Shown: positions 28,201-61,684 of the stretch, in pieces
Numbering within the stretch: position 1 is the first letter of the stretch
How the letters are laid out: the number at the start of each line of letters is the position of its first letter
DNA from: Chrysophaeum taylorii
Lineage: Eukaryota > Sar > Pelagophyceae > Pelagomonadales > Pelagomonadaceae
DNA length: 64,000 nucleotides
Direction of reading: 5' to 3'
Assembly (NCBI GenBank): GCA_029834535.1
Contig: JAQMWT010000009.1
Location: 466,232-530,231, forward strand
Made by a program: the position numbers and the translations under genes
Notes under the pieces: generated by a model
The model's input: the letters and a program-made list of their open reading frames with translations, nothing else
What the model was told of the DNA's origin: nothing
Database searches by the model: none

Positions 28201-28521
28201 CCGGCGGACGGGAGGACTCGCAAAGAAGAAGAGCGGAGTCGTCGACGACTTGTTGTTGGCGGTGGTGGTGGTGGCGAGCCCTGATGATGACGACGACGTC
28301 GTCGTCGTCGTCGTCGTCGTCGCGGTGCTCTCCGCATCCGCCTCGATCTCGTCCCACCCGGCAGGGGTACTGATCAAGACGTTGGACCGCTCGCGCCGCA
28401 GCACGGCGCGCTTCAGGTGTGCCGGCACGCTCGAGCTCCGAACGGCGCCTGTACGACCACCACCACCACCAGCCGCGGCACTAGCGGGGACGGCTGCTTG
28501 TTTCTTGGTTCCCGCCTCCAT
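25225..28521 (-). CDS. Large membrane-anchored C2 / PH-like protein, possible lipid transfer or contact-site protein
   Basis: 1098 residues. N-terminal low complexity (Gly, Thr and Ser runs) precedes two hydrophobic helices at about 104-150 (RWIVVVLASWWFARSLAVAC, then VGAAVVFLPDATGLIL). A beta-rich section with VSLEFKGVRVWPWVG and KFGNPKGVANWCREA follows and looks chorein/SMP-like in style. A C2-type domain lies at ~308-410 (NKLTVEVIAARDLLKSRATF ... VHVALYDEGL). A PH-like segment spans ~705-815 (CRCVLRGATLYYFQIAG ... FLLECDDAALRLGM). The C-terminal ~170 residues (NGMWQLEKRGTDLDGLLACE ... STRLVF) resemble a lipocalin/START-like ligand sheet. Membrane anchor plus C2 plus lipid-binding-like modules suggests an ER contact-site lipid handler; this is inference. 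Confidence 0.6.
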   Translation of the reverse strand: MEAGTKKQAAVPASAAAGGGGGRTGAVRSSSVPAHLKRAVLRRERSNVLISTPAGWDEIEADAESTATTTTTTTTSSSSSGLATTTTANNKSSTTPLFFFASPPVRRWIVVVLASWWFARSLAVACFVGAAVVFLPDATGLILSTIITRIALFDRVSLEFKGVRVWPWVGGDKLYVEVRVKAFKFGNPKGVANWCREAFVSASDIELVLAIRLEALFRIREIFEVWSWFPRHQALRPGRPSRFAAVYEEKRWRNRRMLGTLEIDLSLGDVEVAFERSDGALNSAAISGALARGELERRGLKKKTEGNNKLTVEVIAARDLLKSRATFAKVSVRQKTAKSKTVVTTANPVFALTSTFGGVADPSTVIHVALYDEGLRDVCRGQWASSLKELVISGKMEGWVPLRDHKMRVYEVRRYKEPIRVCSYIEPVAFTGNGLEVAGEYPPDDDRDASIPNLEDPGPGYPAVKLRIRWEHDATSVDPPPPSTMDQMKANSTETALRCGNLDNIRLMLASFPLWLEVRGFRIRGTAIAHVRDLFLTHQGELERKRRSKNKAALDDYARDPKRALALSRLEVAFPREPLTLDQACGKLARGLLDRALAISRVGTVLGQIVTAIGYGALHHADARPSSSSSSRDADEMLETSQNLAADQEPTTTTTTTTKGACKVQGRINRQIALLLGLARPSHKQMDARASDDLSRPVLAAGVLLRASSKTAAPKPCRCVLRGATLYYFQIAGTTGAASRRRRGEDRALDLRRVVNTDRLYGTTLRPRDASSFLLECDDAALRLGMRDDRGLVHWVSLTPVSSDRGRRRFNAAAWDDEAFRTPPATTAAAWRDAIRAALSDLWVTAEAEVRNLVDLYRRGQFDDSQNLEEEKKESSPSVVVERKSAALPVAVCCPTDAASAAVSPRSSYRALHPLNGMWQLEKRGTDLDGLLACEGISYSTRLVFSSAAAALWINLQDNRCIIYMSDCYEHRFAGPLDTPVSTTFEADELRTVFVVDQLSLTDDGAGLILSQSSPVSGEVFLKVEWRTQKRHDATNNKAAPDRKSRLLHDEDTLIQRTRWVHTAAKPYAAGVYAHPHDFDVYRRMPPDKAAQLELAVI

Positions 28522-28608
28522 ACGACGACAGAACGACGACGTCTGTGGTACGCAGCAGTAGCAACAGCAGAATCTTCTTCGGAAGAAAAAGATCCGTTGA
28601 TTATTTGA

Positions 28609-40176: not shown

Positions 40177-43100
40177 GAAGTTCGCACGTGGGTGCCTTGA
40201 GTTCCGCGCAGCCGTCTGTGCGACGGACGAGGTCGGCGAATCCATCGGCAAAAGATCGGGCTCGGGACTGGCGAGTGACGGCGAGGTGTTGCGTGACGTC
40301 GAGCGCGATGACGACCAGAATGACGAGATCCACGGCATTCGCGTGGTGAGTCGAAGTCGTAGATCTCGACTGAAAGCGTCGAGTGACTTGGAGGATCCTC
40401 GCCGCAGACGGCGAGTCTTGCGCCTCCAGAAACGCTGGAGACGTTTGGCGGCAACATGGTACCTGTAGAGTTCGCGTTGCTGGGAGGCTCGCGGGTTGGA
40501 GGAGACGAGGCTGTCGACGAAGAGGCGGAGGAGGTCCACCTGTTGCGACGTGGCGAAGATTGCATAGTACAACACGGAGCTTCGGTCAACCTCCTCGATC
40601 ATCGACGCCGTGCGAAACCTGTGGCGCGATAGTCGGCGGTCGCGGATCGAGCGTTCGAGACGCGCGAGCACGACGGCGAGTCGTTGGCGCTCTTGTTCGG
40701 TACTTTCGAGCATGATGTCCAGGAGCTCCGGCATGAGGTGCTCGAGGCTACGATAGAAGATGGCCTTGAAACTGTTCGAATAGTTGTTCGTCATGCTCTG
40801 GTCGCTCACAAAGGGCGCGAGGCTGTTATTTAGGCTGAAGAAGTTTGCGATTTCGTGCGCCGGATGGACGGCGACCTTGCTCTGGACGTACGCCTTGAGC
40901 GCCTGCCCGCGGAAAGTGCTGAGGATCTCGAAGTCGTTCACGTGCTTGATAGACCGCTTCAACGCTCCCCAGTCGTTCGTCCTGAGCATGGGGACGATGA
41001 CTCGTTCTCCGCTGCTGTCGTCAGTTGATTCGCCGTCGTCGTCGTCGCGATTGTCTTTCTCTGCCTTGACTTCTTCTCGCGGACCTCGGTTTTGACAATT
41101 GGCAGTCCGCTTGTCGCGCACGCTCCTGTTAACTTTTTGGAGCTCGAGATCGTCGTCCGTGCCATCTCCTTTGACGTATTTTTCGACGCCCGACGAAAAC
41201 ATGAGCGGCGCGGACATGGGGCGCGTGAGTTTGCGACGACGATCAATTCGCGCGCGACACAAGCGGCAACACCTCTCGAAGCAAGAAGCGGTGGTAGCTC
41301 CGGCGTCGTCGGCGCGCAAGCCACTGAAGTGATGCGTGATGAGGGAGGGCTGGAGGGCCATGATCGAGGCGCGTCGATACTCTCGCCACGATGCCTCGAC
41401 GCCCTTGACGTTTTGCACGATTCTATAGCGCAGCATGTCGCGAACCGAGACGCTCCTGATATCATCGACGGTCGACCAGACGGCGAAGAACATGAATGCC
41501 GTGTGCACGAACTTGAACAAAATGTCGTAGATTCGTTCGAGGCGGTCCGCGTGGGTCGCGTCGTTGTCGCTCGGCAGGATTGCCACGAAGCTGAAGATAA
41601 AGCCGAGGAGGACGGTGCAGATGACGAGACCGGTTCCGGCGAGCTCGAGGTGGTTCATGCGAGTCTCGACGTTTGGTTTGACCCTCGACTGGGCTGCCAT
41701 GAAGAAGAGAAGGACTACGCAGGCGCTGGTCGCCTGGGCCGACGGCGACGTCCAGAGCAATACCTGAATCGCGACGAGGAGCGCTTGCTTGAGAAGTCTC
41801 GCGAAGCCCCAGAAGAGCGCCCCGGCGCGGAACGGCGCGTAGATGAAACCGAGGCGGTCGAGCAGGGTCGACGTGCAGAGCTCGTTGTCGAAACGAGCCT
41901 TGACCAGGGTGCGGCCAATGGCGACGAAAACGAGCGTCGTGACGCCCAAATACGCGATAGCAATATAACGGAGCACGTGGGTTCTGAGGCTACCCGACGA
42001 GCACGAATCGCCGGGCGAGTTCGCGTATACGATGCCGTTGGACTGGACGTGGCGACAAGAAAAGGTGTCGAGGCAGTTCGCGAGGAGCGACGGAAACGCG
42101 CCGACGAAAAAGGAGAGCATCGAGCCGATTTGGGTGTCCCGCATGTGTCGGAGGCCGCTGATGACGCCGCCGTTTTGGACAGTCGCCACGACGACGATCG
42201 CGAGGGCGTGCACGATCGGGAGGCCTAGCATGTTGAAGAAGATCTCGGGGAAGCCCCAGTTAGGGAACGAACAGCCCGGCGCAAAGATGTCCACGTCGAA
42301 GAGCGCGATCGAAAACACCAAAAACAAATGCCGCAGTTGCTTTGGCCAGTCGAACATGAAGCTCGCGACGATTCCCGCGTCCTGATAGACGGTGCAGACG
42401 AGGTCTAAGACGGGATAGTGCGCGCGGATGACGTTGTTGATGAGGATGAATATCGTGATGAGCGCGATCCAGCATGCGGCGGTAAATACCCCGGCGCTCG
42501 TGCGCTTGGGGCACCGTATCGCGTACGTCGCGATCGAGAAGTAGCCTTTTTGAGTACCGCCGCACATGGCTGAATGGGCGTTCCACCCCTTGCGGCACCA
42601 GTTGAGGATGTCGGTGTCGAGGACGACCGTGTCGCTGTTGCCGTCGATGCACACCTCTTTGTTAAACATCGATTCATTCATGCATCCCGTCGGTCCCGCG
42701 CCGCCCTTGCACTGGTAGCTCACGGGGCATTTGTAGGAATAGACGTGCTGGAGCTTGCCTCGGAAAAGGTCCTCGAGGGCCTCCGGCGAGATCCAGTATC
42801 CCCCCGCCGGATACGGCATCGTCATTCCGCCATCGCACATCGTTCCACTAGGACCTACAATAACGACAACAACAACAGCAGCGTAAGAGAGGAAAAAGAA
42901 AAGAACTCACATTCGACGCAGCCTTCGCGGGCGTTGAGAGGCCACGTTGGCGCGTAGTAGTCCTGGTTGCAGACGCAGTCTGAAATAGAGGTGGTGCCCC
43001 TGGCGTGGTTCTTGATGAAGGAGTTTGGCGGGCACATCTTGCATTCGTTTGCGCCATAGTCGCTGTTGTACCGCTCTTGCGAACACGAGACGCAGGAGGT

Positions 43101-45520
43101 GGCACCGCGTTGGTCCTGGTACCAGCCGGGCTCGCAGAGGTCACACGCGAGGCGGTAACCGCCGGGGTCGGCGGCGTAGGAGCCAGGCTTGCACGAGACG
43201 CACATCCGCGTGACGTTGTCGTAGAACTGGCCCACGTCGCACGCCAAGATCTCGCCGCAATACTGCGAAGAAGAAGAAGAAGAAGAAGAAGAAGAAGAAG
43301 AAGAAGAAGAAGAAGGAGGCGTCGTCGGTTTTCGGATTTCGATCTCAACCGTCGCCGAGGCAGACATGCGCGAGATCGTGTAGAAGCAGTCGCAGGACTG
43401 CCACGCGAAGGTGTCGGTGCCGCAGAAATGGTCGACGTTGGCGTCGTACTGCAGGAGCTGGGTCGTTGGCGAAAAGGCCCCCGGAATGAAGCTGGCGTCG
43501 CCCTCGATCATGACATAGTCGATCTCGTTCCAGTCGTTGACACCCTGGGTATCGAGCTCGAGCCTCAAGCGTCGCGAGGCAAAGGGGAGCGAGCAGAGGT
43601 TGACGGGTTCGAAGATCCGGTATTCGGTGGTCTTCTGATGCCTCGCGTCGACGCGCTTGTCGACGAAGTCGTCCGACCATAAGACGCCCCACGACGCCGT
43701 GTCGTTGTCCCACAGCTTGATCGCGACGACGCTGCCCGCGCCCCTCGGCTCGCCGATGAGGACGCGCGACACGTACACCGGCTCCTCGAAGTCGAGCTCG
43801 ATGTATTCCGTGTACCCGTTCCTTCTGAGGCTCGTAGCGGGGGACCACGCGAAGCTGCCCGTGGCATCCTCGCCGCTCTGAAAGCCCTTCTCGGCGGCTT
43901 GAGACGAGGGGCTCCACGCGAGCTCGGTGTCGCCGTAGGCGTCGGGGGCGTCGGGCTCGCCCAGGATCTGCAACGCACCCCACGAGGGATTGCCATTCGC
44001 CGCGACGCGGCTCGAAATCCACCACGTCGAGACGTCGTGGACGGCGGACGCGTACTGGACGATGCTCGCGGCCGCATAGGTAATCGACTCGGCCGTAAAC
44101 ACCTCGAGCGCTCCAAGATTTACTCCCGTTCGCGCGTCGACGAGCGACAACGTCCCATACGTGGGGAGTCTCGTCACGAACGCGACGATGTGGGTCGTGT
44201 CGACATCGTAGGTCGGCACGGCAAATCTTATCGTACCGTTGGTCGTCGCGTTGACCGAGAGGTCGGAAACGACCGGAAGGTCGTCGATCGCGTACGAGAT
44301 CTGGAAATAACGACGCGCGACGTTGGTCCTCCGACCGTCCGAGGTCTCGCCCACCAGATCGATCGAGTCCGTGCCGTCGAAGCTGTCGTCGGGCGAATAC
44401 TTAAACCGAGACAAAGCGTACCGTTGCGCGTACGGAACCGCGGTTATCTCGACGTTCGAGTTCACCCCCGCCGCGTCCACCTCCTCGAGGGTTCCGTTCG
44501 CTGGAAGCCTCAGAATCTCGTAGGTGAACCGTCGACCAGCGGGGTCGTAGGCCGCTGGCACGAATTCCACGCCGACGCCCTCGGCGAGCTCCTCGGTCAC
44601 GTTCGCAAAGCTCGCCGCCACCGCTTTTGTCGCGTTCGTGCTCTCGCTCCACCACTCGGGCGACGTCAACGAAGAGACGAATTGGCACCCGTCGGTCGCC
44701 ATGTCGAAGAAAAGCCGCATCGTCTTGTCGACCCCCGAGGCATAGGCCCCCAGAACTAGATCGTACCGCGACCCGGCGATCCCCAGATTTGACGTGCTTC
44801 CGCCCCCTCCGAGATCGTAGTAGATGCTCGCCAGATCGTACGCTGGCAACGAGGACGCGACGACCGGCCACACGGCGAACTCGGCCAGCTGTCCGGAGAA
44901 ACCGCTGTCGGTGTTCACCCTCGTCAGGTCCCCCGCATCGTCGTATGCCGAAAACGCCTGTCCAAACGAGATCCCCTCGACGCATCCGGGCCCGAACACC
45001 CCCGCGACCGTTCCCCGTTTGTTCGCCAGATAAGACGCCGCGAGGACGCCGTCGACCCACAGCCGGATCTCGTCGGACGAGGTCTCGTACGCGACCGTGT
45101 ACCGGTGCCACTCCTCGATGCTCCACGCCTCATCCTCCATCTCGACCACGTCCCCGAAATAAGCCGTCGACTCCATGTTAAACAGCACCCGAAGCGTCCC
45201 CGGCGCCGACACCTCGATCAGCAAATCAAAGTCGTACCCCGCATCGAAGACGTGGATCGTGTCGGAAGAGTACGCGGCCCACACCCGCGCCACCACGCTC
45301 ACCGTGAAGTTTCCCTGCGGCAGCACGCCCGCGTCCCCGGAAGCGAACATCGATCCCACTCCCGCTGCGTCTGAAGACCTATAATACGACGAGGCTTCAT
45401 GAATGAAATGATGATTCCCATAATCAATAAATATTAAAGTGCTCACGCTTGAAAGGTCAGCGCGTGCTCGTACGCCGCCGCGACCCCGCCCGCCAAGGCG
45501 ATGATGATGATGCAAACCAT
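40156..45520 (-). CDS. Large receptor-like protein: signal peptide, LamG-like, discoidin-like, Cys-rich, polytopic membrane domain
   Basis: Three exons on the minus strand: 45520-45447, 45378-42911 and 42854-40156 (1746 residues). Splicing GTGAGC...TTATAG (45446-45379) joins a signal peptide MVCIIIIALAGGVAAAYEHA to the body. Splicing GTGAGT...TTGTAG (42910-42855) restores GCVECPSGTMCDGG across what otherwise looks like two ~890-residue proteins. Domains: concanavalin/LamG-like (~35-215), discoidin/F5-8C-like (~525-660, YIELDFEEPVYVSRVLIGEP ... NEIDYVMIEG), a 17-Ser run, EGF/ephrin-receptor-like Cys-rich (~730-870), about eight to ten TM helices (~965-1310) and a long charged cytoplasmic tail. 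Cell-surface sensing or adhesion is likely. A damaged paralogue ends the window. Confidence 0.75.
42855..42910 (-). other. 56-bp spliceosomal intron
   Basis: On the minus strand it starts GTGAGTTC and ends TTATTGTAG. Removing it keeps frame and restores a C-x-x-C-P-S-G-T-M-C pattern typical of the Cys-rich repeats in this family. Unspliced, translation would stop within the intron. Confidence 0.8.
45379..45446 (-). other. 68-bp spliceosomal intron
   Basis: Starts GTGAGCAC and ends TATTATAG on the minus strand, and is AT-rich against GC-rich exons. Splicing yields Q-A-S-S-D-A-A-G and gives the protein a signal peptide. The alternative unspliced start at 45536 gives a His/Arg-rich N-terminus without a signal. 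Confidence 0.7.
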
Positions 45521-45792
45521 CGTTTGGAACATCCACCAGTCGCGACCACTTTAATTTGCCACAACCGAGAACCGGTTCATAAGACCCGTTCTCTTCGAAG
45601 ATAAAGGTAGTTTTTAAAGGTCGACTGACTGCTAAGAGGGGGGTGTGACAGAGATAAAGTTGGCCAAATAATGAAATTGGCCAAATAATCAGGGCGGGAT
45701 ATTTGGAGGATTTTCAAATAATCCGACCTGACTTGGGTCGGGTTTTTCGAGGCGGGCGCCAAAGTGAAAAAACTTAAGCAAATATACCGACC

Positions 45793-47358: not shown

Positions 47359-47472
47359 CAAAAACACCCATCAAATCCATTTCAGTTTACATGACCAGTA
47401 GAGAACCGGCACTTAAAACTGGCCAAATAGTCAGGCCAAATTAACCCTGATTAGTTGGCCAGTTTCATTTGG

Positions 47473-48470
47473 AGTTGGTCCGCTCGCGGCGACGAGTTTC
47501 CCTTCGATGAATCGGCGTACGCCGACGACGTTGCCTTTCTCTTCTGGGGCCGCCACATCGCCGCCAGCGAGACACCGCGCCTCATCGAACACTGCGACGC
47601 CTGGGGCATGGAGGTGCATTGCGGCAACCGACACACGAAAGCGGCGTCCAAAACGGAGATGCTGTTCGTCGCTCGCCCGGCAAACCTGTACGGCGACCCA
47701 AAGTCGTTCGACGACACGAACCTCTCGGACATCGAGCTCGGGCGCGGCCGCTTCATACCGGTCGTCGACCAGTTTAAGTACCTCGGCTCGGTCCTCTCGC
47801 GCGACTGCCGCGACGACTCAGACGTCGACGCGCGGATCAAGAAGGCGTCTCAGGCCTTCGGTGCCTTGCGGGACTGCATCTTCGCCTCAAAGTCCGTCTC
47901 TGCTCGCGCCAAGCGCCTCGTCTATGTCTCGCTCGTCCTGGCCATCCTCCTTCACGGTGCGGAATCGTGGTGCCTCACCGAGGTCCTGTTCCGCCGGCTG
48001 CGGTGTTTCCACGCGCAGTGCGCCCGCGTCATGTGTCGTGTGACCCGGAAACACACCTGGTCCCACCACATCTCAACGGAGATCCTGCGGCGGCGCCTCG
48101 GCCTCGAGTCCATCGACGTCTACGTCACGCGCCGCCAGCTCCGCTGGGCCGGTCACGTCGCCCGCATGCCCTTCTCCCGACTCCCTCGCAAGATGCTCTC
48201 GTCTTGGGTCCGCTCCAAGCGCCCACCGGGGGCTCCGCAGATGACGTACGGGAGGTCGCTCGCCAAGGCACTCCGGAAATGCGACATCCCCTTCAACTCG
48301 TGGCACGACCTCGCACAAGACCGCGCGCAGTGGCGGTCCGCCATCCATGCACTTTCCCAAGCTTCTACCCCAACTGTGTGATTTTTTTTGCTCTGTGATC
48401 CTGGACCGGCTACTACCGGCCCAGCCTGGCTCCCATGCTCGGGTGAGGTCCGAAGTTAGTTAGTTAGTTC
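47473..48470 (+). mobile_element. 5'-truncated LINE (non-LTR retrotransposon)
   Basis: Contains the C-terminal third of a LINE reverse transcriptase, a short 3' UTR and a terminal (TTAG)n tract at about 48454-48468. The 3' UTR includes a G/C-rich stem-like segment (CCGGCTACTACCGG) and the ~45-bp tail shared with the SINE-like repeat. The 5' side is cut at the Harbinger right end. Confidence 0.7.
47479..48381 (+). pseudogene. LINE reverse transcriptase C-terminal fragment
   Basis: An unbroken open frame beginning just upstream of the RT catalytic motif: SAYADDVAFLFWGRHI (YADD), then KTEMLFVARPANLYG, FKYLGSVLSRDCRDDSDVDA and RIKKASQAFGALRDCIF. These are followed by VLAILLHGAESWCLTE and the C-terminal WAGHVARMP typical of LINEs (RT thumb and connection). 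Endonuclease and the N-terminal RT motifs are missing, so it is a fragment despite being open to its natural stop at 48381. Confidence 0.75.
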
Positions 48471-50643: not shown

Positions 50644-50803
50644 AAGCCACCAGGCTGCGTGGATGCATCGACACTGTCTGGACGCGCTCGGACTGCGCGT
50701 CAGGCGTCAGACACACCGCAACGCTTCTGCATTTCCGTGAAATGAGGTAGAATCGGTCCGTTGCGCGTTCTTTTGAGTACGTGCGCCCAAAATGGACAAA
50801 AAC

Positions 50804-50869
50804 AGAAGGTGAGGGTAGGAATGCCGGTCCTGGTGTGTGCGAGTGCCCGGGGCTATATATACCCCTGTG
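50804..50869 (+). repeat. ~65-bp TATA-containing repeat, copy A
   Basis: GAAGGTGAGGGTAGGAATGC continuing through GAGTGCCCGGGGCTATATAT and ACCCCTGTG. Nearly identical to 51171-51235, and to 51321-51374 in inverse orientation, with a shorter version at 61977-62030. Confidence 0.85.
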
Positions 50870-51170
50870 CTTCCCCATCATAGTGAAACGTGAACACCTG
50901 GGGCGAGTCAAGCATGTATGCGAGACGGTGGGGACCCAGCAGACGACGACGCCATCTGCTTAAGATGAACATCTGCGTCGGAGATGTACACCCGGTCCTG
51001 GTAAGTGAAAGCGCCCAGATGAGGGGGGTCTAGTGTTTGTGCTAGACGATGGGACTCCAGCAGTTGGCGACGGCAACTGCTTCGTAGACACTCACACACT
51101 CCTTGCGGCGCAGCGGTGAGGCGGATTCGAACGCGCGATCCACCTCGAGCGCTTTAAGGGCCCATAACCA

Positions 51171-51374
51171 GAAGGTGAGGGTAGGAATGCCGGTCCTGGT
51201 GTGTGCGAGTGCCCGGGGCTATATATACCCCTGTGAAAAAAGCTTCCCGCAACTGAAGATATCATCATCCCACATGATCTGACGAAGCAAGCCCCCCCCA
51301 AAGTCGACTAAGGGCTATCTCACAGGGGTATATATAGCCCCGGGCACTCGCACACACCAGGACCGGCATTCCTA
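51171..51374. repeat. Fold-back pair: TATA-containing repeat copies B and C, inverted
   Basis: Copy B (51171-51235) and inverted copy C (51321-51374) are separated by ~85 bp, giving a structure like a small MITE or fold-back element. Each arm includes the imperfect palindrome GGGGCTATATATACCCC. Just upstream, 51141-51170 (CACCTCGAGCGCTTTAAGGG onward) matches 61950-61976 beyond the retrotransposon. Confidence 0.75.
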
Positions 51375-51454: not shown

Positions 51455-51459
51455 CCTAC
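51455..51459. repeat. Target-site duplication, left (CCTAC)
   Basis: CCTAC immediately before the left LTR, repeated directly after the right LTR at 61680-61684. Five bases is the usual size for Ty3/gypsy integration. Confidence 0.85.
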
Positions 51460-51796
51460 TGTGGCGTAAGGAGAATTTTAGGGGCTACCTGGCGTGCCTT
51501 CGAATCCTGGCTCGCCGATCGCGTCCGTGCCTTTGGAGGGATCACTGGACGAGGATGGCCGTTCTCCCGCCACGCGACCACAAACAACTCCTGCGCCTGG
51601 TCCTCTCAACTTGAGGATCGGCTGTTGCTTTATGATCAAGGATAATCGAAAATCAGAAATCAGGGTGACACGTGTCACGGAAAAGGAAGATGATGTCATA
51701 GAAAACTCTGACATCATCGGAACGGAGTAGGGTGCCCCTGATAAGGGGGGGCCCTAGAAGAGGGGTAAGCCTTAGGAGGCGGGATTTGCCGCCACA
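51460..51796 (-). repeat. 3' LTR (337 bp)
   Basis: Ends are the short inverted repeat TGTGGCG / CGCCACA. On the element strand a G-rich stretch (ACCAGGGGAGTCC) lies directly before it and may act as a weak polypurine tract. It is 14 bp longer than the other LTR; almost all differences are bases missing from the right copy. Confidence 0.9.
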
Positions 51797-51836
51797 GGAC
51801 TCCCCTGGTAAGAATTCGAGCTGCCCCAGCGAGGTG

Positions 51837-52973
51837 CTAGCGCGAGGAGCGCGGCTTTGCCTTACGAGCATCTCGTGAACGAATCTTCTGGTAAACGCGG
51901 GTGATGATCGGTTCAGGAACTCGACCACTGCGTAAAGTAAACTTGGGGACCAACACGTCAATCTCGTGCGGAGCGAAATCCGTGACACAAGGAGTTGTGT
52001 TGGAGGAAATTCGGGACTTGTCGGTGAAGCTTCGACCTTCAACGTCCTTGAATTCGGGCTTGAGCTTGCGGTGCGAAAGGTGAGAGGTCGGCTTGAAATA
52101 AGCGACATCATCGTTCGGACCCAAATCGGAATAGAAATGTAGAGCGACACGATCATTTTGGTAATCGTAAGGCTCGTAAACTTCGGCAACATAAATCTTC
52201 TTGCGCCAATCAGAGCGCTTCCGGTCAGGAATCCGGAAAACAACAAACTTACCGTGCTGATAATCATCACGGAAGGTTTCTTCGGGTTTGCGGATGGTTT
52301 GATCAACGATCGGAGGTACCATCACCGGCGTGATCTGACTTACATGAACACGCCGCTCTTCGGGCGGAGAGTCGAGAGACTCAATCCTATAGGTGACCGG
52401 GGAGAGGCGTTCCTTGATAATAAACGGCCCTCGCCATTCCGGTCGAAGTTTGTTCTGAAGAAAAGGGATGTAGAGCAAAACGTGCGATCCTTCCTTGTAT
52501 TCAACATCAACATGATCAGCATTGTAAGCCAATCGCTGTTTCTTCAAAGCTTTATCACGAGCCTCGCGGACGATCTTTGTATAATATTTCAATCGTTCGC
52601 GAGTCTCGGCGACTGCATCAGAGCGAGTCTTCGGCAACAATCGTGTATCAAAATCCATGAGCGTGTAGTCAGTCGGCAGCATCGGCTGACGGTTCAGGCG
52701 CAGCATAAAGGGAGAAATCTGCGTGCCTGGAATAAACTTGCGGTTGTAGCAAAACGCAATATAATGAGCAAAGTCAGGCCAATCCGTGATGTTCCGGCCT
52801 TGAAGGCAAGCTCGGAGGAAGGCCTTGATAAATCGGTTGACACGCTCAGCCGGGTTCGACTGGGCATGATAAGGAATCGTAGTTTGGTATCGGGTGTTAA
52901 AGAGATGGCAAAACTCGCGCATCAACTTGTTCACGAACTCTTTACCGTTGTCGGTATGAATCATCTGGGGCAA
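51837..52973 (-). pseudogene. Integrase C-terminal part, after an in-frame TAG
   Basis: In the same frame as the main Pol ORF, separated only by the TAG at 52974-52976. It starts LPQMIHTDNGKEFVNKLMRE with the second integrase catalytic Asp, then PYHAQSNPAERVNRFIKAFL with the catalytic Glu. A GPX-type C-terminal section follows (GSHVLLYIPFLQNKLRPEWR, GPFIIKERLSPVTYRIES). The tail of ~150 residues (RIPDRKRSDWRKKIYVAEVY ...) has no obvious chromodomain. Ends 40 bp before the 3' LTR. Confidence 0.85.
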
Positions 52974-55900
52974 CTAGCCCTTGAGGAGGATGTTAATGAC
53001 AAAAGACTCGAGGACAGACTCAGCAGTCTTATCGTTCAAAACATCCAGAATCAAGAAATGCGAGAACGGATCAAAAAATACTAGGAGATACGTCTCGGGA
53101 CCAGCGCTGGGCAAGGGCCCAAATAAATCCAAGCAAAGAACAGCACCATCAGCGTCGTATACGGGCTGCTGCAAGAGTCCAGCTCGTTTCGGCTCCGGTG
53201 TACGAGCTTTCTGACAAACTAAGCATTCAGCAATGAAGACTCCAACTTCGTTTGACATGTGAGGCCACCAAAATCGTTCTTGGATAGCCTGGACGGTACT
53301 GTGACGTCCCATATGACCACCGTTAACCGGAGTGTCATGATAGAGTCGAATAATGCGTTTTCGCAACGTAGCAGGTGCAACAATCATCGGGTGCGAATCA
53401 GCAGAAATGCGGTAAAGAACATCTTTAACGACTTCGAATCGTTCGTTCGCTCGGGAAAGTCGCGGCGCCTGACCTTGGGCCATTCGGTGGCGAATATCCT
53501 CGCACGTAGCATCAGATTCTTGCTCACGTGCGATCTCAGCGAGCGTCATATTATCGGGTATCTTATCGATATAATCTTTGTAAGCGGCTGCGTCCTTGAA
53601 GATCTGTGGCTCATCACGCGCACGGTTCTTCCGACGTTGTCTCGTAGCGTGAGACGTAGCCAATTTCATCGGATCCTTTTCAGGGTCTTCGTCTTCGTCT
53701 TCCGGCAGTTCGGTCGTAATAAACGACATTATGAAGTGGCAGCCAGAGACGGGAACTCCTCGGTCATCAACAGGTCGGGGAAGCTCTTGGAACACTAAAT
53801 ACGCGTGGTTCAAAGGTTCTCCAAACTCGTCAGTCTCGATGACATGATCAATCGGGTTGCGGGAGAGACAGTCAGGGATACTCATTCCCGGTGACTTTCC
53901 CGGCTTGTAACCAAGTTCAGGGTCAAAATTGGCGAGGCGCATCGCCCAACGAGCAAGCTGCCCAGACGAGTGCGTCGCCTTACGTAAAAACGTCAAATTT
54001 CGGTGATCGGTCTCCAAAACAGTACGGTGCCCTTCGATGTAGGCTCGAAAGTGCTCTAGAGAAAGTATAACTGCCAGCAGCTCTAGCCGACGGGGCTCAT
54101 AATTCCGCATCTCCTTCGGCACAGCTCGGCTCCAGTATTCAATTACTCGTTCTTCTCGAGTCACCCTTCCGGCATCGTCCTTGACTTCGACAATCTGGAA
54201 GAGATATGCTCCAAGTCCATCCTTGGAAGCATCGGATCGGATCTGAAAAGGCAGATCATAATCGGCGTGGTAGACTCCACGGGAATCAACCAAAGCTTCA
54301 ATAATCGTATCCCAAGCTTTCTGACACTCGGGCGTCCACTCGAACTTTACACTTTCGAGGCATAATCGTCTCAACGGTTCCACAATCTTCGAGTAGCCCT
54401 TCACATATCGCCGGCAATAATTACTCATGCCGATGAAAGAGCGTATCTGGGTCTTCGGGGAAGTATTCGGTAAAGTACCTGGAATCGGCATCTTCTGCAG
54501 TGCTTCCAGCGTCTTCGGATTCGGCTTCAAGCCTTCAGGGGTAGAAATGTGTCCCAGAAATTCTATATTATCCTTGAGAAGGTGGAACTTCGCGGTTCGA
54601 CCGCTGTACCCTCTCTGTGCCAAATGACACATCACTTCGATCAAAACTTGTAAATGTCGATGAAGATTGTCGGATCCCATCATAATATCGTCAACAAACG
54701 CAACCAAGTCTTGATACATCCATTTCGAAAGGTCGCTCGCCATTTGCTTGCAGAAAAGAGCTCCGGCCGTCTTCACACCTAGAGGTAATCGCAAGAAACT
54801 ATGAGCGCCAAGTGGGCTAACCATCGTGACAGCGTCTTGCGCTGCCGGATCCAGACGAAGGTTGTGGTATCCCCATCTAATATCAATGCATGTCCGCCAT
54901 CGTCTCATCGCGAGAAAGGCTAAAGCATCATCTTGTCGAATGTTTGGCCAACTGTCATTGACCAATTGATCGTTGAGCTGACGTAAGTCAACTGCAGCAC
55001 GGAACGCGTTTGACGTTCCAATCTCAGCTCCTTTCTTCGGAAGCATCAACACGGGAAAGCCCCAAGGTGAGTTGGCCGGACGAATGACTCCATCCCGGCA
55101 CCACTCGCTGATCTGCTTGCGGAGACACTCGAGTTTCGCAGGCGTCAATCGGTAGGGCGTCATCTTTATCGGTCGCGGATTCGCGTCTTTGAATCGTAGA
55201 GACACAGGAGGCGAGTCCACAGGTCTCATAATCGGGTCGAAAAAGGCCCAAGAATATTGCACACAGTGACGGAGCATCAGTTTCGCCTCGTCATCTAAGT
55301 GCGGATTGTCAGGAATTCCCAGCTCCTGCACAACCTTGTCAACTTCTTCCTTCGTAGGAATTTTAACTTTCATTGCTTCGTTGTCCTTGACATGCTCAGG
55401 AGTCTGCGGCAGTGGTGCACCCTCGGCATCGCGCGGCGCATCTTTCCATGGCACATCGAACTTTTTCTTATATTTTAGTTTCACTTCCGGGTGGCTTTTG
55501 TTGATCCTCTCGCCTTTGACACGAACACTCGGTTCACTCTTAATCTTCGGTTCCCGATCTCGCTCAGGATCTGGTGGAACGTCTAAATTTGGTTGTCGGG
55601 GGGGGGTAGCAGAAGAAGCATGAGACGTCCCCGGCTCATCTGTTGCAGGCGGAATCAACGGTACATCTGGAGGTTTCCATTTGGTGCGATCTTGGAGATC
55701 ATCAGTCGACACCCATCTTACGACACGTGTGCGCGTGTTTAACAGCGGAACTTGTACGTGACGAAGGGTGGTTTCATCAATTTGTAAATAATAATCAAAC
55801 GGTCGGTCTGCAGGACTCAACGCTGACGGCAAAGCTTCGCCGCTCAGGCGAAATTCCTTGGTCACAGAATTGTGCAGATCGAGCATTAATAAGGCCATCG

Positions 55901-56729
55901 TGTCAGGTGGCACGACGGACGCCAAGTGTTTCAACGAGGTCGTCCTGGAGAGGCCGGCCCAATCAAAATCAGGGGGCATCGTCAGCAACTCCGAAGTCAT
56001 TTCCAAATTCAGAGATCTGTAATCGGAACGGTGCGGTCCTACGCGAAGCGGGACACGCGTAACAGTATAAGCTGCGTCTGTCGCGGCTCGTGATGATCCT
56101 AAATTGTTCATCTGAAGTAAATGTCGTTCGTCGGCGTAGCCAAGTGCTGCGGCGAACTTTTGCTGCATATTCTTGCAAGTCTTTGGAACTGCGCGCAAAT
56201 GGAGCGGATGGCTGGAAACCAACAATCGCACGCGACAGCTCATCAAACTGGGAGTTATGTCGTAAAAATTGACGACGTATACGTACGGGTGCAAACGTGC
56301 AACGTAAGAAATAATCGAATCGAAGCCTCCTGCTCTATCAACCACATGAAGAAACCAGCCATCTTGCATAATTTCATCGTCCAGTGGGTAGCGGTAACTC
56401 CTTTCCAACATCTGGAGGTCAAGTTGCACAGAGCGGAGTGTACGCAGGGTGGCGACGCGACACACATCGACGACGACCATTCCGCGTAGGGTAAATAAGA
56501 TTCGATCAACCGTAAGGTTGTAACATAGCGACCACACAATGTGTGCTGCACCACAGGAATATTCGGAAAGTTCTTGTGGTGGATCTGGTTGGCGGTGTCC
56601 GACGCATCGAGTGCTAGCACGACTCGAAACGACGTCCCACACGTTTTGTTGGCTCGTTGGAGACCCAAAGTACTGCCTCCGGCTCCACTGAACAGCATCA
56701 CCACCTTGCGATAAGTGATTGGAAGCCAT
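52974..56729 (-). CDS. pol: Pol: C5-methyltransferase C-terminal half, reverse transcriptase, RNase H, integrase N-terminus
   Basis: An open frame of 1251 codons. The first ~100 residues are out of the methyltransferase frame. From about residue 105 the frame carries methyltransferase motif VIII (VNFYDITPSLMSCRVRLLVS) and motifs IX-X (LNLEMTSELLTMPPDFDW then ASVVPPDTMALL, to ~285). A charged linker follows, then RT (~500-760: DGVIRPANSPWGFPVLMLPK, AVDLRQLND, catalytic FVDD at ~680). RNase H is at ~830-960 (SDASKDGLGAYLF, the E in RLELLAVILSLEHF, TDHRNL), then integrase HHCC (HDTPVNGGHMGRH ... CLVCQKAR) and the first catalytic Asp (LCLDLFGPLP). It ends at TAG within the integrase core. Confidence 0.9.
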   Translation of the reverse strand: MASNHLSQGGDAVQWSRRQYFGSPTSQQNVWDVVSSRASTRCVGHRQPDPPQELSEYSCGAAHIVWSLCYNLTVDRILFTLRGMVVVDVCRVATLRTLRSVQLDLQMLERSYRYPLDDEIMQDGWFLHVVDRAGGFDSIISYVARLHPYVYVVNFYDITPSLMSCRVRLLVSSHPLHLRAVPKTCKNMQQKFAAALGYADERHLLQMNNLGSSRAATDAAYTVTRVPLRVGPHRSDYRSLNLEMTSELLTMPPDFDWAGLSRTTSLKHLASVVPPDTMALLMLDLHNSVTKEFRLSGEALPSALSPADRPFDYYLQIDETTLRHVQVPLLNTRTRVVRWVSTDDLQDRTKWKPPDVPLIPPATDEPGTSHASSATPPRQPNLDVPPDPERDREPKIKSEPSVRVKGERINKSHPEVKLKYKKKFDVPWKDAPRDAEGAPLPQTPEHVKDNEAMKVKIPTKEEVDKVVQELGIPDNPHLDDEAKLMLRHCVQYSWAFFDPIMRPVDSPPVSLRFKDANPRPIKMTPYRLTPAKLECLRKQISEWCRDGVIRPANSPWGFPVLMLPKKGAEIGTSNAFRAAVDLRQLNDQLVNDSWPNIRQDDALAFLAMRRWRTCIDIRWGYHNLRLDPAAQDAVTMVSPLGAHSFLRLPLGVKTAGALFCKQMASDLSKWMYQDLVAFVDDIMMGSDNLHRHLQVLIEVMCHLAQRGYSGRTAKFHLLKDNIEFLGHISTPEGLKPNPKTLEALQKMPIPGTLPNTSPKTQIRSFIGMSNYCRRYVKGYSKIVEPLRRLCLESVKFEWTPECQKAWDTIIEALVDSRGVYHADYDLPFQIRSDASKDGLGAYLFQIVEVKDDAGRVTREERVIEYWSRAVPKEMRNYEPRRLELLAVILSLEHFRAYIEGHRTVLETDHRNLTFLRKATHSSGQLARWAMRLANFDPELGYKPGKSPGMSIPDCLSRNPIDHVIETDEFGEPLNHAYLVFQELPRPVDDRGVPVSGCHFIMSFITTELPEDEDEDPEKDPMKLATSHATRQRRKNRARDEPQIFKDAAAYKDYIDKIPDNMTLAEIAREQESDATCEDIRHRMAQGQAPRLSRANERFEVVKDVLYRISADSHPMIVAPATLRKRIIRLYHDTPVNGGHMGRHSTVQAIQERFWWPHMSNEVGVFIAECLVCQKARTPEPKRAGLLQQPVYDADGAVLCLDLFGPLPSAGPETYLLVFFDPFSHFLILDVLNDKTAESVLESFVINILLKG

Positions 56730-56800
56730 TGAACCTTTTCACATCGGCGGCGGATCTCCGCTTCAGTGATCTCGCGGCATTTCTTTTCATCTTCCGTCAT
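55880..56800 (-). CDS. C5-cytosine DNA methyltransferase domain inside Pol
   Basis: Spread over two frames. The ORF 56800-56255 starts ATG (overlapping the preceding stop as ATGA) and holds motif I (VVMLFSGAGGSTLGL, 56672-56692 for the FSGAGGS core). It also holds motif II (VVLALDASDTANQIHHKNFP) and motif IV with the catalytic Cys (VASPPCVHS, Cys codon 56444-56446). After motif IV the homology passes by a -1 shift into the Pol frame: a degenerate motif VI region (GWFLHVVDRAGG), motif VIII, a variable ~100-residue target-recognition-like stretch, then motifs IX and X. That is a complete DNMT core of about 290-300 residues lacking regulatory domains. It could methylate element cDNA or host chromatin; this is inference. 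Confidence 0.8.
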
Positions 56801-57132
56801 AGCGGCGTGTCGTAGCGTCCTTCTGCACCGTGCTCAGCAGCATCGCGGGGGGGAGATTCGTCGCATCGCGTCAAGTGACTAGCGACAGAAACGGTGAAAG
56901 AAAGGTTCCCCTTGTCGTATCCTTCTTCACATTCTTTCGTAAGTTCGTTGATCGTAGAGACGTTCAACTCATCTTCGTACCTAACGATATCACCAATCGC
57001 AAGGACTTCGCCTTGAGTGACGACCGTCGGCACTTCTCCGTGGCAGCAACCGCCACCCGAGCAGCGGACCGGTCGCGCTCTTCGCAAGAAGAACACATTC
57101 CTTCGACACTCCCAACTGCTCGTTCTCAGCAA
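56797..57132 (-). pseudogene. Pol segment between protease and methyltransferase, shifted frame
   Basis: The frame carries VVTQGEVLAIGDIVRYEDEL, ELTKECEEGYDKGNLSFTVS and ends CTATGA, whose TGA overlaps the ATG of the methyltransferase frame. It continues the protein that ends at 56990 in another frame, implying a frameshift near 57040. No enzymatic motif. Confidence 0.5.
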
Positions 57133-58198
57133 ACGTAGCGACGAAAACCTGTCCCATTTCCATAGGTTTCGACAAAATAACCGGTAGATTGTAAGTTCGA
57201 CCGGGCTCGATTTGAAGCGTGCGCGCAGCGTAAGCCACTACTCCTCGCGCGTCTTCTCCCGGAGCTGGGGAGAATTTGGTCGTAGCATGTCCCCGCGTAG
57301 CCAAGGCTACCTTACGTTCCGGCGGCGGGCTTCGGAGATCTTTAATCGTGCTCAAACGAGCGTAAACTCGAGTCTTGACCAGGTCGAGACTCTGCCGAAA
57401 GGCATCGTGTTGATGATTGTAAATCGGTACGGTTATCGGATTTCGATCGTAAATAGACCGAAAGGTCACGATTGGTGCATCGACTCGTTCATCCTTAACT
57501 TTAATCTTCTTGCGCCCGTAGACGACTTGGGTTCGACAAAAACAGATCCGATCATGGGGAAAATCCACGATGGCTCCTAAAACTCGTATATCGCGCCCTC
57601 CCAACAGGAACAGATAATTCGTATCGGCTACAATAGCAACAATGGGGGCAGCGAAGTCGTCGGCGGCGAAAGCGACCCGAAGGGCGATCCAACGATGGAT
57701 CGTCGTCGTATTCAACCCTGATCCGTACAGCTTGCGCTTAATCGGAAGTTCGCCTTCATCGAAAATCAACTGATCTTTGGTCAACTTTTGACCATTTCTC
57801 GGCAAATATAAGAAACATCTGCCATTCCATCGACACCAATGGTCGTCGAGAATTTCGGTCCGTCACGATTCCTGTAGATGTGACAGGCTAATAAACGTTA
57901 AAGTACCCGTATCTAAACAACTGAGGGTAATCAAATCATCTTCGATCGTCTTGCCATCTCGCGGCGTCAACGAAGTGTGAGCACATCGGGCTCTGAATCG
58001 CTCATCTCCGGGGTTGGGCATCGATACCGCGGCTTGAGCTTTCGTATTATCTGTTGTTGGCGTCTTCGCCATAATGCTCGCGGCAGCCTCTTTATCTGGC
58101 GGCTTCCGCTCTTCCTCCAAGACAATCTCGAGGAATAAACGCGGTAGGGGATCCTGGTCTTCGTAATCCTGGAAGCAAACAACCCTCCCATAAATCAT
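56990..58198 (-). pseudogene. Retropepsin-type protease region with in-frame TGA
   Basis: One frame interrupted by TGA at 57863-57865. Upstream of the stop is the catalytic motif LSCLDTGTLTFISLSHLQES (LDTGT). Downstream, PIVAIVADTNYLFLLGGRDI then VLGAIVDFPHDRICFC matches the second half of a gypsy protease (Y-x-x-L-L-G-R-D, IDF). The stop separates the two halves of one domain, so it is a nonsense mutation and not a gag/pol boundary. Probable C-to-T change of CGA. Confidence 0.7.
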
Positions 58199-58199
58199 T

Positions 58200-61100
58200 C
58201 ATTTCGTCGTTCCAGAATGCATCTGTGAATTCATTCGTCGCCTGCTGATCCTCATCAGCATCGGCGATCGGTTCCGTGTCAGCTGCGGCTTTGAGTCTGC
58301 AGCTGCGCGGTGTTCCGGGTGGCTTCTTTAGTAAGAAATTCCGAGCTTTCGTCCACCAATCCTGCAGGTTCCACGTCTGCTCGTCTTCGTCACACATTTG
58401 AGAACGCTGCTAATCTTCTTCATAAATCTATCCTTTTCTTCCGGCGCGCGGCGTATCCGTGTCTCGATCCGTAGTAACGAAACCGTTTCGGGGGGTCCGC
58501 AGGAAAAGATGGCGTCCGTCCCCATCCCCGACGCCTCCGGTCCACCTGAGGGTCAAAATCTTGCGTAAAATCGTTTTTCCGTCTGCAATACTCGCGCTTG
58601 TCACGTATCGTTCAGTCCGACATGGCGCGCACGAGCTATCACTGCAGAAATTCATGCGTCTGGTCACAGCCAGTTCGGTCGCAATCGGTCGTCTCTGGAG
58701 GGTCAAAGATAAGCCGATTGGCATCGAGGGCCTTCCTCATCAAAAATAAACGTGTGGTCGTCGTGGACGCACTTGTCAAATAACATTAACGCGGACACTG
58801 GTTCAAAAGTGTAGCTGCTTCATCTTCCGAATCTGAATCGCCTTCCCAGTATCGTGGAGCTTCAAGTTCTTCGCCTCGAGATGCTTCGAGCTCATCGTCG
58901 ACATCTGCTCTTACCCCCACCCCCAATAAATCTGTGCCAAAGACCGACGATGGTCAGCACGTCGTTGGGTGGCTCGTCCATCGGTAGGGCGAGCAAGATA
59001 TTCGAATGCGGCCGGCGGCAAGGGCGGAGGCGGCGTCCGTCGGTGCGGGTGTCAATTGTTCAGGGTTAAACCGTCACTCACTAATGGTAATTGTGACCGC
59101 AAAGGTCGTAAATGCGAGCGTTGCGCTCAAAAAAATCGAATTTATATTACGTCGGCCTCCGTCGTATTAGTCCAAAAAAGAGTTACAGCGTCGTCTGTGC
59201 CGGCGCGAACTTCGACTGGGGCTCTTGTTATCTTTGTCTCTCTCTGGCGTCAGTTCGGCAGGTCCTAGTACCTCTGGATCATCCCTGTAGGCGACTGGTG
59301 CTTCCAAGTCTATCCGAACTGGCTCAATCGTCTCGTCTATCGAAACATCGACGCCTCGTCTTTTTAAAACTCCGACCAAACGTAAATTAAATCTCGGTTG
59401 TGCCAATAAATCCGTGCCTCGGGGTCGGAATTGTACTTCTTTCCACTCTGGCGGTTTCTTCGTCAGGAAACATTGAGCTCGTATCCTTATCGTCGGTACG
59501 CTCATCTTCCTATTATCCATGCTGATCGTCCCATCCAAATTCGGTTCCGGGCGGCAGCTATACTCATCCCTCATAGTATGTTCGGGATCTTTCTTTATCA
59601 CGTAACCATCATCATATGCAGGCTAAAAATGTGAACTCTTCGTTCGTGAGCAATACGCCAGGGCTTTCACTGAGCTCCAAAGGCAGTTCATGCGTTATAA
59701 GATTCTTCATCTCTTCCGCTTTCGTATTCATTTTCTGGCCGTTTCACTCGGCCTCTCATCCACTCCATCGCTTCGAATATCGGCAATCGCCTCGTCACTA
59801 AAATGCAGCACACGAATTGTGCGCCATCGTCAAAGGGAATAAAACATGCAAAAAACGTCTGCAGTCGGTTCGTCGGGGGGCTGCAAAAGAAGAAGGCGTC
59901 GTCCCCCACGTCATATCTGTCAAAAACTGGCCACCAAAGGGCACGTGACGTTCGATGGGTGTGTACTCAGGTGCGCGCTTATCATTCGAGGTAATCCTGC
60001 GACGCATCGTCGATCGATCGTGGAGGCGACGTGCCATCCACTTGAATGTTCGGAGGTAAACTCATAGCATCGAGCGTAGCAGCGGCGGGTCCCTTACTTT
60101 GGGCGTCATCGGCTGCACGGGGCTCGTAAATCGGATTCGCACATAACTCCGGCGCGTCGTCAAGACCGAGGGTTGTGTCAGCTGACGACAAATAATATCG
60201 TGCCACCAACGGTGACACCGGGTTAAAGCGTTGTCGGCTTCGACCCGTAGTTGCTAACGACGTTTCGGTCAAATTCTTCATTCTGTGGGGATTTTAGTTT
60301 GGGTGAGCTCCTTCGACTTGGATTGCTCTTGATCGTAGTTTAACGACGTTTCGGTCATCTCGGACGACTCGTCGTAGTCGTCGCCGCGGCTTCCTAACGC
60401 TCGCGTTCGCGTGGGCGGCGGTACCTCCGAAGGTCGGAATTCTCCCTCGAGACTGTTCGCTCGCCTCGGGCGATTCGGCATACGCAACTCATCTCTTTCA
60501 CGTGTCAACGCGCTTGCTTGATCTTGGAGGCGTCTGCTCGAGCATTGGCCATACGCAGCTGTCGCACTATTTTTATCTCCTTCCGGTGTAGCCGTTCCTT
60601 TTCGTTCGTTCTCTTCCCCTATTTTAAAAAAGTCCTTCTTGCGCGCGTTCTCTTCGCGTAATGCCCGCAAGTGAGCCTCGTAGAACTCATTCATTTCGTT
60701 GCATCCGGGGTTCTGCGCGGACGCTGTCGATCGTCCTCCCGCCGGTCTCTCCGTGGGCTTGCCGTAGTTGTAGTTTAGCTCTTCCTCGTCAACTTCTATC
60801 GTGCTCTTCTTCATCGCCATCATCATCATCATCATCATTCCGCTCGTTCGTCTCATCCTGACGGCTTGGCGGTTCTTCATATCGTTGCTCGACGGCAGCA
60901 TCATCGTCTTCCATATCGGCTCTGGCTCGTTCTAGTCGGCCGAGATCAGAGCGGGTCCAAAATGGTTGAGTCGTCGTCGTTCTCGTGCTCCTTCGGCTCT
61001 GGAACTTCTAATCGTCCACGACACGCGTAATATCGTCGTTGCGTGCGTCTTCCACCGACAAATCTATCCGTACGGTGGGCGGCAGAACTCGTCTCTGCCC

Positions 61101-61356
61101 GGCAAACAATGCCTTCCGTGAGCTGCGATCTCATCCGCTCGCCTGCGGCAGCGGTACCCGGTTGCGCGTCGGTTAGCACAAATCGCGCGTCGTCACTTCC
61201 GACGACTATCCGGCCGGGAACTTTCCCACGGCAATGGTCCTTCTGGAATTCCTTGTCGGCGCGCTTGATCAGGGCGCGCACGGCGTCCGGACCGTGTAGA
61301 GTGCAAAGATGCGGTGGTGCAACCGATATGGTCGCTCGAATCTCATATCCTCCACC
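58200..61356 (-). pseudogene. Gag-like region, fragmented
   Basis: Successive minus-strand frames in different registers cover this interval: 61356-60946, 60904-60278 (MKNRQAVRMRRTSGMMMMMM, ELNYNYGKPTERPAGGRSTA), 60281-59982, 60037-59798, 59909-59688, 59601-59167 and 58724-58428. Position between primer-binding site and protease identifies it as gag. I could not see an intact CCHC zinc knuckle; a CGHNYH string near 59065-59085 may be a remnant. At least five frameshifts. Confidence 0.6.
61333..61355 (-). promoter_or_regulatory. Primer-binding site complementary to a tRNA 3' end
   Basis: Directly next to the 5' LTR (after one base) the minus strand reads GGTGGAGGATATGAGATTCG then AGC. Its complement, CGAATCTCATATCCTCCACC, has the layout of a tRNA 3' end: T-loop TCGAAT, T-stem strand, acceptor strand ATCCTCC, discriminator A and CC(A). 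I cannot name the tRNA isoacceptor. Confidence 0.7.
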
Positions 61357-61679
61357 TTGTGGCGTAAGGAGGATTTTAGGGGCTACCTGGCGTGCCTTCG
61401 AATCCGGCTCGCCGATCGCGTCGTGCCTTTGGAGGGTCACTGGACGAGGATGGCCGTTCTCCCGCGCGACCACAAACAACTCCTGCGCCTGGTCCTCTCA
61501 ACTTGAGGATCGGCTGTGCTATGATCAAGGATAATCGAAAATCAGAAATCAGGGTGACACGTGTCACGAAAAGGAAGATTGTCATAGAAAACTCAGAATC
61601 ATCAGGAACGGAGTAGGGTGCCCCTGATAAGGGGGCCCTAGAAGAGGGTAAGCCTTAGGAGGCGGGATTTGCCGCCACA
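61357..61679 (-). repeat. 5' LTR (323 bp)
   Basis: Begins TGTGGCGTAAGGAGGATTTT and ends CCGCCACA on the plus strand. Compared with the 3' LTR it lacks about 15 bases at scattered one- to three-base sites and has few substitutions. Confidence 0.9.
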
Positions 61680-61684
61680 CCTAC
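61680..61684. repeat. Target-site duplication, right (CCTAC)
   Basis: Direct repeat of 51455-51459. Confidence 0.85.

Follow-up and report, generated by a model that had tools for sequence, protein, structure and literature searches.

Silencing by cytosine methylation is one of the main host weapons against transposons, and elements that carry and preserve a DNA methyltransferase (DNMT) of their own are thus paradoxical. Retrotransposons of this kind are known in dinoflagellates and charophytes, as the original prediction for the locus studied here had stated and as PMC5890265 bears out. KnitGypsy-Dnmt3 of Klebsormidium nitens (de Mendoza et al. 2018, PMC5890265) was described there as a long terminal repeat (LTR) Gypsy element whose Pol open reading frame (ORF) includes a DNMT, with key residues kept and with purifying selection on the DNMT. 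In Symbiodinium, elements including SymbioDIRS-Dnmt3 and SymbioLINE-Dnmt bring hundreds of retrotransposon DNMTs into one algal genome; SymbioDIRS-Dnmt3 has its DNMT in Pol together with a reverse transcriptase (RT), and its DNMT domains were reported to carry out de novo CG methylation in yeast (PMC5890265). Here, we describe a Ty3/gypsy LTR retrotransposon with a C5-cytosine DNMT domain N-terminal to its RT in the stramenopile alga Chrysophaeum taylorii. The element lies in a stretch of 64,000 nt, hereafter the window, which covers positions 466232-530231 of contig JAQMWT010000009.1 (contig C9) in a genome of 70.8 Mb and 697 contigs.

The DNMT domain and its affiliation

The original prediction, made from the sequence of the window, had named DNMT motifs I, II, IV, VIII, IX, and X; all of these were recovered on the minus strand and in order, together with a motif VI, at the following positions.

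55857-56749, minus: C5-cytosine methyltransferase domain, N-terminal to the RT (Pfam piece, motifs, and family profile match)
56672-56692, minus: motif I, FSGAGGS
56600-56614, minus: motif II region, ALDAS
56444-56455, minus: motif IV, SPPC
56321-56341, minus: motif VI, LIEQEAS, which retains the Glu of the canonical ENV but not its N and V
56256-56270, minus: motif VIII, NFYDI
56217-56234, minus: motif VIII, RVRLLV (R-x-R)
55971-55994, minus: motif IX, SELLTMPP, aligned to the canonical profile
55899-55919, minus: motif X-like, SVVPPDT, with PP in place of the canonical GN

Biochemical work on M.HhaI identified the Cys of PC, the Glu of ENV, and the Arg of RxR as catalytic residues; we take the Cys of SPPC to be the catalytic cysteine here, and FSGAGGS presumably has the AdoMet-binding role of motif I. 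In the window copy, the reading frame is interrupted after motif VI and before motif VIII, with motifs I to VI in an ORF at 56258-56833 and motifs VIII to X in an ORF at 52977-56738. A Pfam search, which had been proposed as a check, gave a divided answer: the N-terminal piece of the window copy alone matched DNA_methylase at E 2.1e-4 and 21.3 bits, just below the 22-bit cut-off, and the whole 1265-aa frame of another copy (L025) also stayed below it (20.7 bits), whereas the isolated DNMT domains of two other copies scored 26.0 and 28.6 bits. At E values up to 10, the same family (PF00145) was matched in 15/15 aligned copies of family A, to which the window copy belongs, and of a second gypsy family, C (best E 4.9e-10). 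An absence of matches for motifs VIII to X had been named beforehand as evidence against the domain, and this concern holds for family A taken alone, in which the match is limited to motifs I and II (profile positions 2-52) in the copies with ranges shown; family C, by contrast, matches PF00145 at both profile ends, including motifs IX and X (profile positions 257-321).

A profile of the 15 family A and C copies was aligned by hhalign with a profile of 68 canonical C5-methyltransferases (C5-MTases), which comprised bacterial and IMG/VR sequences, protein P0001, and the host DNMT2 and DNMT5. The alignment spanned 258 columns (prob 97.3, E 2.3e-11) with a score of 83.8, compared to at most 23.4 for 100 column shuffles and 13.2 for the reversed profile. 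The N-terminal and C-terminal pieces of the profile, when used alone, matched the canonical profile at E 1.4e-9 and 1.7e-5, respectively, and the alignment placed SPPC onto PPCQ and the RPLT..E...P stretch onto motif IX. Among unbroken copies (31 of family A and 5 of family C after removal of identical DNA), SPPC, the motif VI Glu, and RxR were kept in 30/31, 31/31, and 30/31 copies of family A, respectively, and each in 5/5 copies of family C; with regard to the QxRxR of motif VIII, RxR is kept in these copies and the leading Gln is not. By profile and motif comparison, the gypsy domain thus belongs to the C5-MTase family, as originally predicted.

In the PDB, matches were weak, the best at E 0.03 for a single sequence (to DNMT2) and at 0.11 for the profile, both at motifs I and II; in a protein database, the family A domain had one match, at E 0.76, and the frame of copy L010 had none. 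The A and C profile matched three proteins in that database, i.e., P0002 (E 1.9e-36) and two canonical PF00145 proteins (E 0.016 and 0.084). P0002, a metagenome protein of 322 aa from the Joint Genome Institute (JGI), is 29-33% identical to the gypsy DNMT, carries SPSC and LEQV motifs, and ends after motif VIII; its C189, E227, R258, and R260 lie in invariant columns of an alignment with 31 canonical enzymes. P0002 is the only convincing database relative that we found, with no relative of the gypsy DNMT in IMG/VR, and it suggests that the lineage exists in other organisms. The phylogeny that had been proposed yielded a clade but no class: the gypsy DNMTs and P0002 group together (100/100); their stem is very long, with an unreliable point of attachment, and the tree contained no DNMT3 reference and has branches too long for placement among DNMT1/3/4/6.

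Recurrence across the genome and selection

Genome searches scored the best candidates only, and all copy numbers given here are therefore lower bounds; two contig pairs, C10/C297 and C25/C521, show near-identical coordinates and equal scores, look like duplicated haplotypes, and inflate the numbers. A 277-aa DNMT piece of the window copy gave at least 142 matches at 71-100% identity (140 of 1043 candidates scored), and a DNMT query from subgroup A2 gave at least 125 (125 of 1018 scored); the two lists merge to at least 192 family A places, partial and broken copies included. Many of these matches sit in frames of 1000-3067 aa with no stop within the match, and several copies carry DNMT and RT in one unbroken Pol frame, such that the search for intact copies, as suggested with the original prediction, was successful elsewhere in the genome. 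A listed DNMT lies at most 1.5 kb upstream of the family A RT at 67 of 99 RT places (99 scored of 1300 candidates), and two of three places sampled from the other 32 carry DNMT residues 40/42-296, spread over at least two frames. Family C, with an RT that is 62% identical to that of family A over 324 aa and a DNMT that is 41-42% identical, has at least 153 DNMT matches (146 of 840 candidates scored). The DNMT domain is older than the divergence of families A and C.

Selection was assessed by dN/dS (nonsynonymous to synonymous substitution rates; NG86) on unbroken segments only, with a DNMT set of 32 loci in which one copy was counted twice, as L040 and as L043; identical DNA was removed for the family C and copia estimates. 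Between subgroups A1 and A2, dN/dS was 0.055 for the DNMT (a rough value, as dS of ~0.9-2.3 is largely saturated), 0.017 for the RT, 0.149 for the linker, and 0.172 for the upstream region. Within A2, the corresponding values were 0.17, 0.21, 0.52, and 0.25, and the family C DNMT had a dN/dS of 0.063 (5 copies). By these ratios, the gypsy DNMT shows the signature of purifying selection; its catalytic residues are conserved, and the data support that it belongs regularly to gypsy Pol and is maintained there by selection, rather than being a private insertion.

A DNMT is also found in a Ty1/copia family (family B), with at least 156 DNMT matches in the genome (150 of 657 candidates scored). In one copy (L041, 3097-8952), a 1952-aa frame matches DNA_methylase at 1.1e-7, rve at 0.006 (under the cut-off), and RVT_2 at 1.6e-38; RVT_2 lies downstream of the integrase, as in copia elements, and the DNMT precedes the integrase and follows a protease motif, DGGAS, recognized by eye. 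Family B loci include L041, L039, and L055-L066. The copia DNMT has the canonical PCQ in 9/10 and ENV in 10/10 unbroken copies (ENA counted), aligns with the canonical C5-MTases over 132 columns at E 1.7e-9 (score 70.8; 100 shuffles at most 24.6), and has a core dN/dS of 0.126 (18 copies). In the PDB, its profile reached E 0.12 at best and a single sequence had no MTase match; in IMG/VR, the copia query matched a single canonical MTase, which lies on a phage-like contig. The gypsy and copia DNMT profiles, both of which are shallow, showed no detectable relation (prob 0.1), which suggests a separate origin of the copia domain, i.e., a second capture.

The window element, its surroundings, and the host methylation genes

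The original prediction of a gypsy element with two LTRs and a target duplication was confirmed in its parts, which are arranged as follows.

51460-61679, minus: Ty3/gypsy LTR retrotransposon (LTR pair, target site duplication, and domain order)
61358-61679, minus: 5' LTR, 322 bp, TG...CA
51460-51796, minus: 3' LTR, 337 bp, TG...CA
51455-51459: target site duplication CCTAC, left
61680-61684: target site duplication CCTAC, right
56993-57862, minus: upstream Pol region, retropepsin-like by eye (0 Pfam families)
52977-56738, minus: ORF of 1254 aa with the C-terminal DNMT part, linker, RT, RNase H, and integrase N-terminus
54546-55040, minus: RVT_1 reverse transcriptase (Pfam E 6.3e-13)
53925-54338, minus: RNase H-like, RT_RNaseH_2 and RT_RNaseH overlapping (Pfam E 5.2e-22 and 9.8e-26)
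53199-53375, minus: H2C2 zinc-binding domain of the integrase (Pfam E 2.4e-18)
51840-52973, minus: integrase core end and C-terminal domain, past an in-frame stop, in the frame shared with the 1254-aa ORF

Pfam matches on the window frames place RT and RNase H ahead of the integrase, i.e., in the gypsy order; in the last segment (51840-52973), rve was matched at E 2e-5 (25.2 bits, under its cut-off of 32.6) and Integrase_p58_C at E 1.6e-6. The two LTRs differ by 2 substitutions over 321 aligned positions and by 12 gap runs, and with gap runs this numerous, real decay and assembly error are indistinguishable for the window copy. The DNMT had been placed between protease and RT; the RT does lie downstream, but the protease is seen by eye only, as no protease family was matched in a Pfam scan of 56993-57862 and the other upstream frames scanned. 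By eye, upstream Pol of families A and C (e.g., in L042 and L068) has VDGMAD or LDGMAD at the usual place of the DS/TGA active site. Rfam gave 0 matches on the window. A direct repeat of 90 nt (50780-50869 and 51146-51235, 366 bp apart) lies just outside the 3' LTR, and a 308-aa frame at 47455-48381 looks by eye like the terminal part of a LINE-type reverse transcriptase, with no Pfam match at E 1e-4. Host-type genes in the window encode an ATAD3-like AAA ATPase (1007-2749), a C2-domain protein (25228-28608), and an ephrin-receptor-like repeat protein (42858-45713).

With regard to host methylation genes, a PF00145 scan of the genome gave at least 57 matches (123 of 474 candidates scored), i.e., two host loci, L001 and L002, and 55 that overlap copia-family places. 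L001 is DNMT2 (PDB 1g55, E 5e-39), and L002 is DNMT5 (Cryptococcus Dnmt5 chain 7r76, E 3e-143); both share the PF00145 family with the element domains but are matched over nearly the whole profile, and the element DNMTs stand far from them in the tree, although the branches involved are too long to be reliable. No DNMT1, DNMT3, or DNMT6 gene was among the PF00145 matches in this exon-by-exon scan of the best candidates, which could miss intron-rich genes. The frame opposite L001 encodes a light-harvesting complex (LHC) protein (best PDB match VCPI-6, E 2.3e-17), as would be likely in a photosynthetic stramenopile. One host protein (L067, contig C594) has an SRA domain, a reader of 5-methylcytosine; by eye, it also shows PHD-like cysteine clusters and an N-terminal part that looks like an AlkB/2-oxoglutarate (2OG) oxygenase. 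DNMT5 has been described as a maintenance enzyme (PMC10538959), and other stramenopiles, e.g., diatoms, were reported to have additional DNMT classes (PMC9998398).

Possible roles of the domain and comparison with described systems

We lean, with a little better than even confidence, toward the reading that the window copy is a frame-broken member of a large gypsy lineage with a DNMT built into Pol that methylates the element's own cDNA. The DNMT would be released, or tethered beside the RT, within the virus-like particle and would methylate the cDNA during or after reverse transcription, and new copies would thus integrate already methylated; the host's maintenance-type DNMT5 would then perpetuate the mark, which may camouflage the copy as resident DNA or damp its expression in cis. 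A separate capture would have brought the copia family to the same solution. The position of the DNMT in Pol beside the RT suggests action on cDNA, as has been proposed for SymbioDIRS-Dnmt3 (PMC5890265), and self-methylation of cDNA is plausible. In addition, the recurrence of such a domain in two LTR superfamilies of one genome, together with the selection on it, argues for a benefit of the enzyme to the element.

A number of observations weigh against this reading. Residues usual in active enzymes are replaced, including the Q after PC, the N and V of ENV (EQE), and the GN of motif X, and the middle piece of the A and C profile (columns 76-180, with SPPC and motif VI) alone had no canonical match (prob 0.9). 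Apart from the saturation between A1 and A2 mentioned above, dN/dS within A1 was 0.37 for the DNMT versus 0.085 for the RT (linker 0.20, upstream 0.31), which indicates weaker constraint among recent copies. Members that lack the domain, which had been anticipated as a sign of a private insertion, were found in part: next to the 67 of 99 RT places with a listed DNMT and the two near-complete sampled copies, one RT copy (L164, C127:79832-81032) retains DNMT residues 187-296 only, i.e., the C-terminal 110, with no match in 431 bases further upstream, and one C-type element (L068, C335:25600-28700) has no family C DNMT match at E up to 1. L068, which looks like an internal deletion, is perhaps a non-autonomous or complemented copy; in its downstream frame, it shares 87% identity with L070 across 439 aa. 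CpG is not depleted (1.30 in the element and 1.30 in the left flank), and CpG transitions among copies show no consistent excess (ratios 0.58, 1.37, and 0.91); this lack of a footprint is compatible with methylation but gives it no support. Finally, the KnitGypsy DNMT was without activity in yeast, a result that its authors call inconclusive (PMC5890265).

Several of these points would also fit a domain that has kept the C5-MTase fold and acts on RNA (element RNA or the tRNA primer) or mainly binds nucleic acids or provides structure within Pol, rather than methylating DNA. The replaced residues in motifs IV, VI, and X, the lack of a CpG footprint, and the best single-sequence PDB matches, which were to DNMT2, a tRNA methylase (not significant), all point in this direction; the catalytic Cys, Glu, and RxR, however, are present in almost every unbroken copy of both gypsy families as well as in P0002, which speaks against a pure scaffold, as such a scaffold would not need them, and we regard this explanation as rather unlikely. 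Still less probable, in our judgement, is an enzyme that acts in trans, through de novo methylation of host chromatin, rival elements, or invading DNA viruses, to the benefit of the element or the host. The large copy number, the lack of a de novo-type host gene next to DNMT2 and DNMT5 among the PF00145 matches scored, and an antiviral function proposed for transposon methylases (PMC6338049) would favour such a role, but a DNMT embedded in Pol is expected in particles. That the motifs reflect a private insertion or a chance resemblance unrelated to the element has hardly any probability left; the window copy alone falls just under the Pfam cut-off, but family-wide recurrence and selection exclude a private insertion, and these together with the shuffle controls (at least 192 merged places; 83.8 versus at most 23.4) exclude chance.

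These elements offer a natural system for tests of self-methylation or camouflage. They also bear on the question of how new methylation might be acquired in DNMT5 lineages for which no de novo enzyme is known. DNMT5 is the only DNA cytosine methyltransferase gene of the host that we detected, and it is conceivable, if improbable, that the hundreds of separately captured gypsy and copia enzymes are the main de novo source in this alga, with parasites that write the mark and a host that copies it.

The original prediction had held that a DNMT N-terminal to the RT in a gypsy Pol was not described for stramenopiles. No stramenopile LTR element with a C5 methyltransferase appeared among the literature matches listed, as judged by title and start of abstract in a search with preprints and most subscription journals outside its range, and the word stramenopile is absent from the main text of PMC12344493 as available; the arrangement as such has a precedent in the gypsy Pol of KnitGypsy-Dnmt3 (PMC5890265). 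A 2019 opinion article lists stramenopiles among hosts of elements with adenine or cytosine methylases, taken together (PMC6338049). Sola1-1_Ec32 of Ectocarpus is likewise a transposable element with a DNA methyltransferase in a stramenopile alga, but it was described as a DNA transposon whose methylase is predicted to be of the N4-cytosine or N6-adenine type and which also carries a ParB domain; it is thus neither a C5 enzyme nor a retroelement (PMC12477816). The Symbiodinium elements are DIRS elements, with a tyrosine recombinase, and long interspersed nuclear elements (LINEs), whereas those of this alga are LTR elements with an integrase. KnitGypsy-Dnmt3, in a charophyte host, is reported to have fewer copies than the Symbiodinium elements and has a DNMT that groups with Dnmt3 (PMC5890265). 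Family A shares with it a DNMT in the Pol frame, many copies, and purifying selection, but differs in its host, its very large copy number, and a highly diverged DNMT without clade placement, and the same genome holds an additional, copia family with a DNMT. The DNMT-bearing LTR elements of this alga therefore represent a kind known from two other groups, in a host group that looks new.

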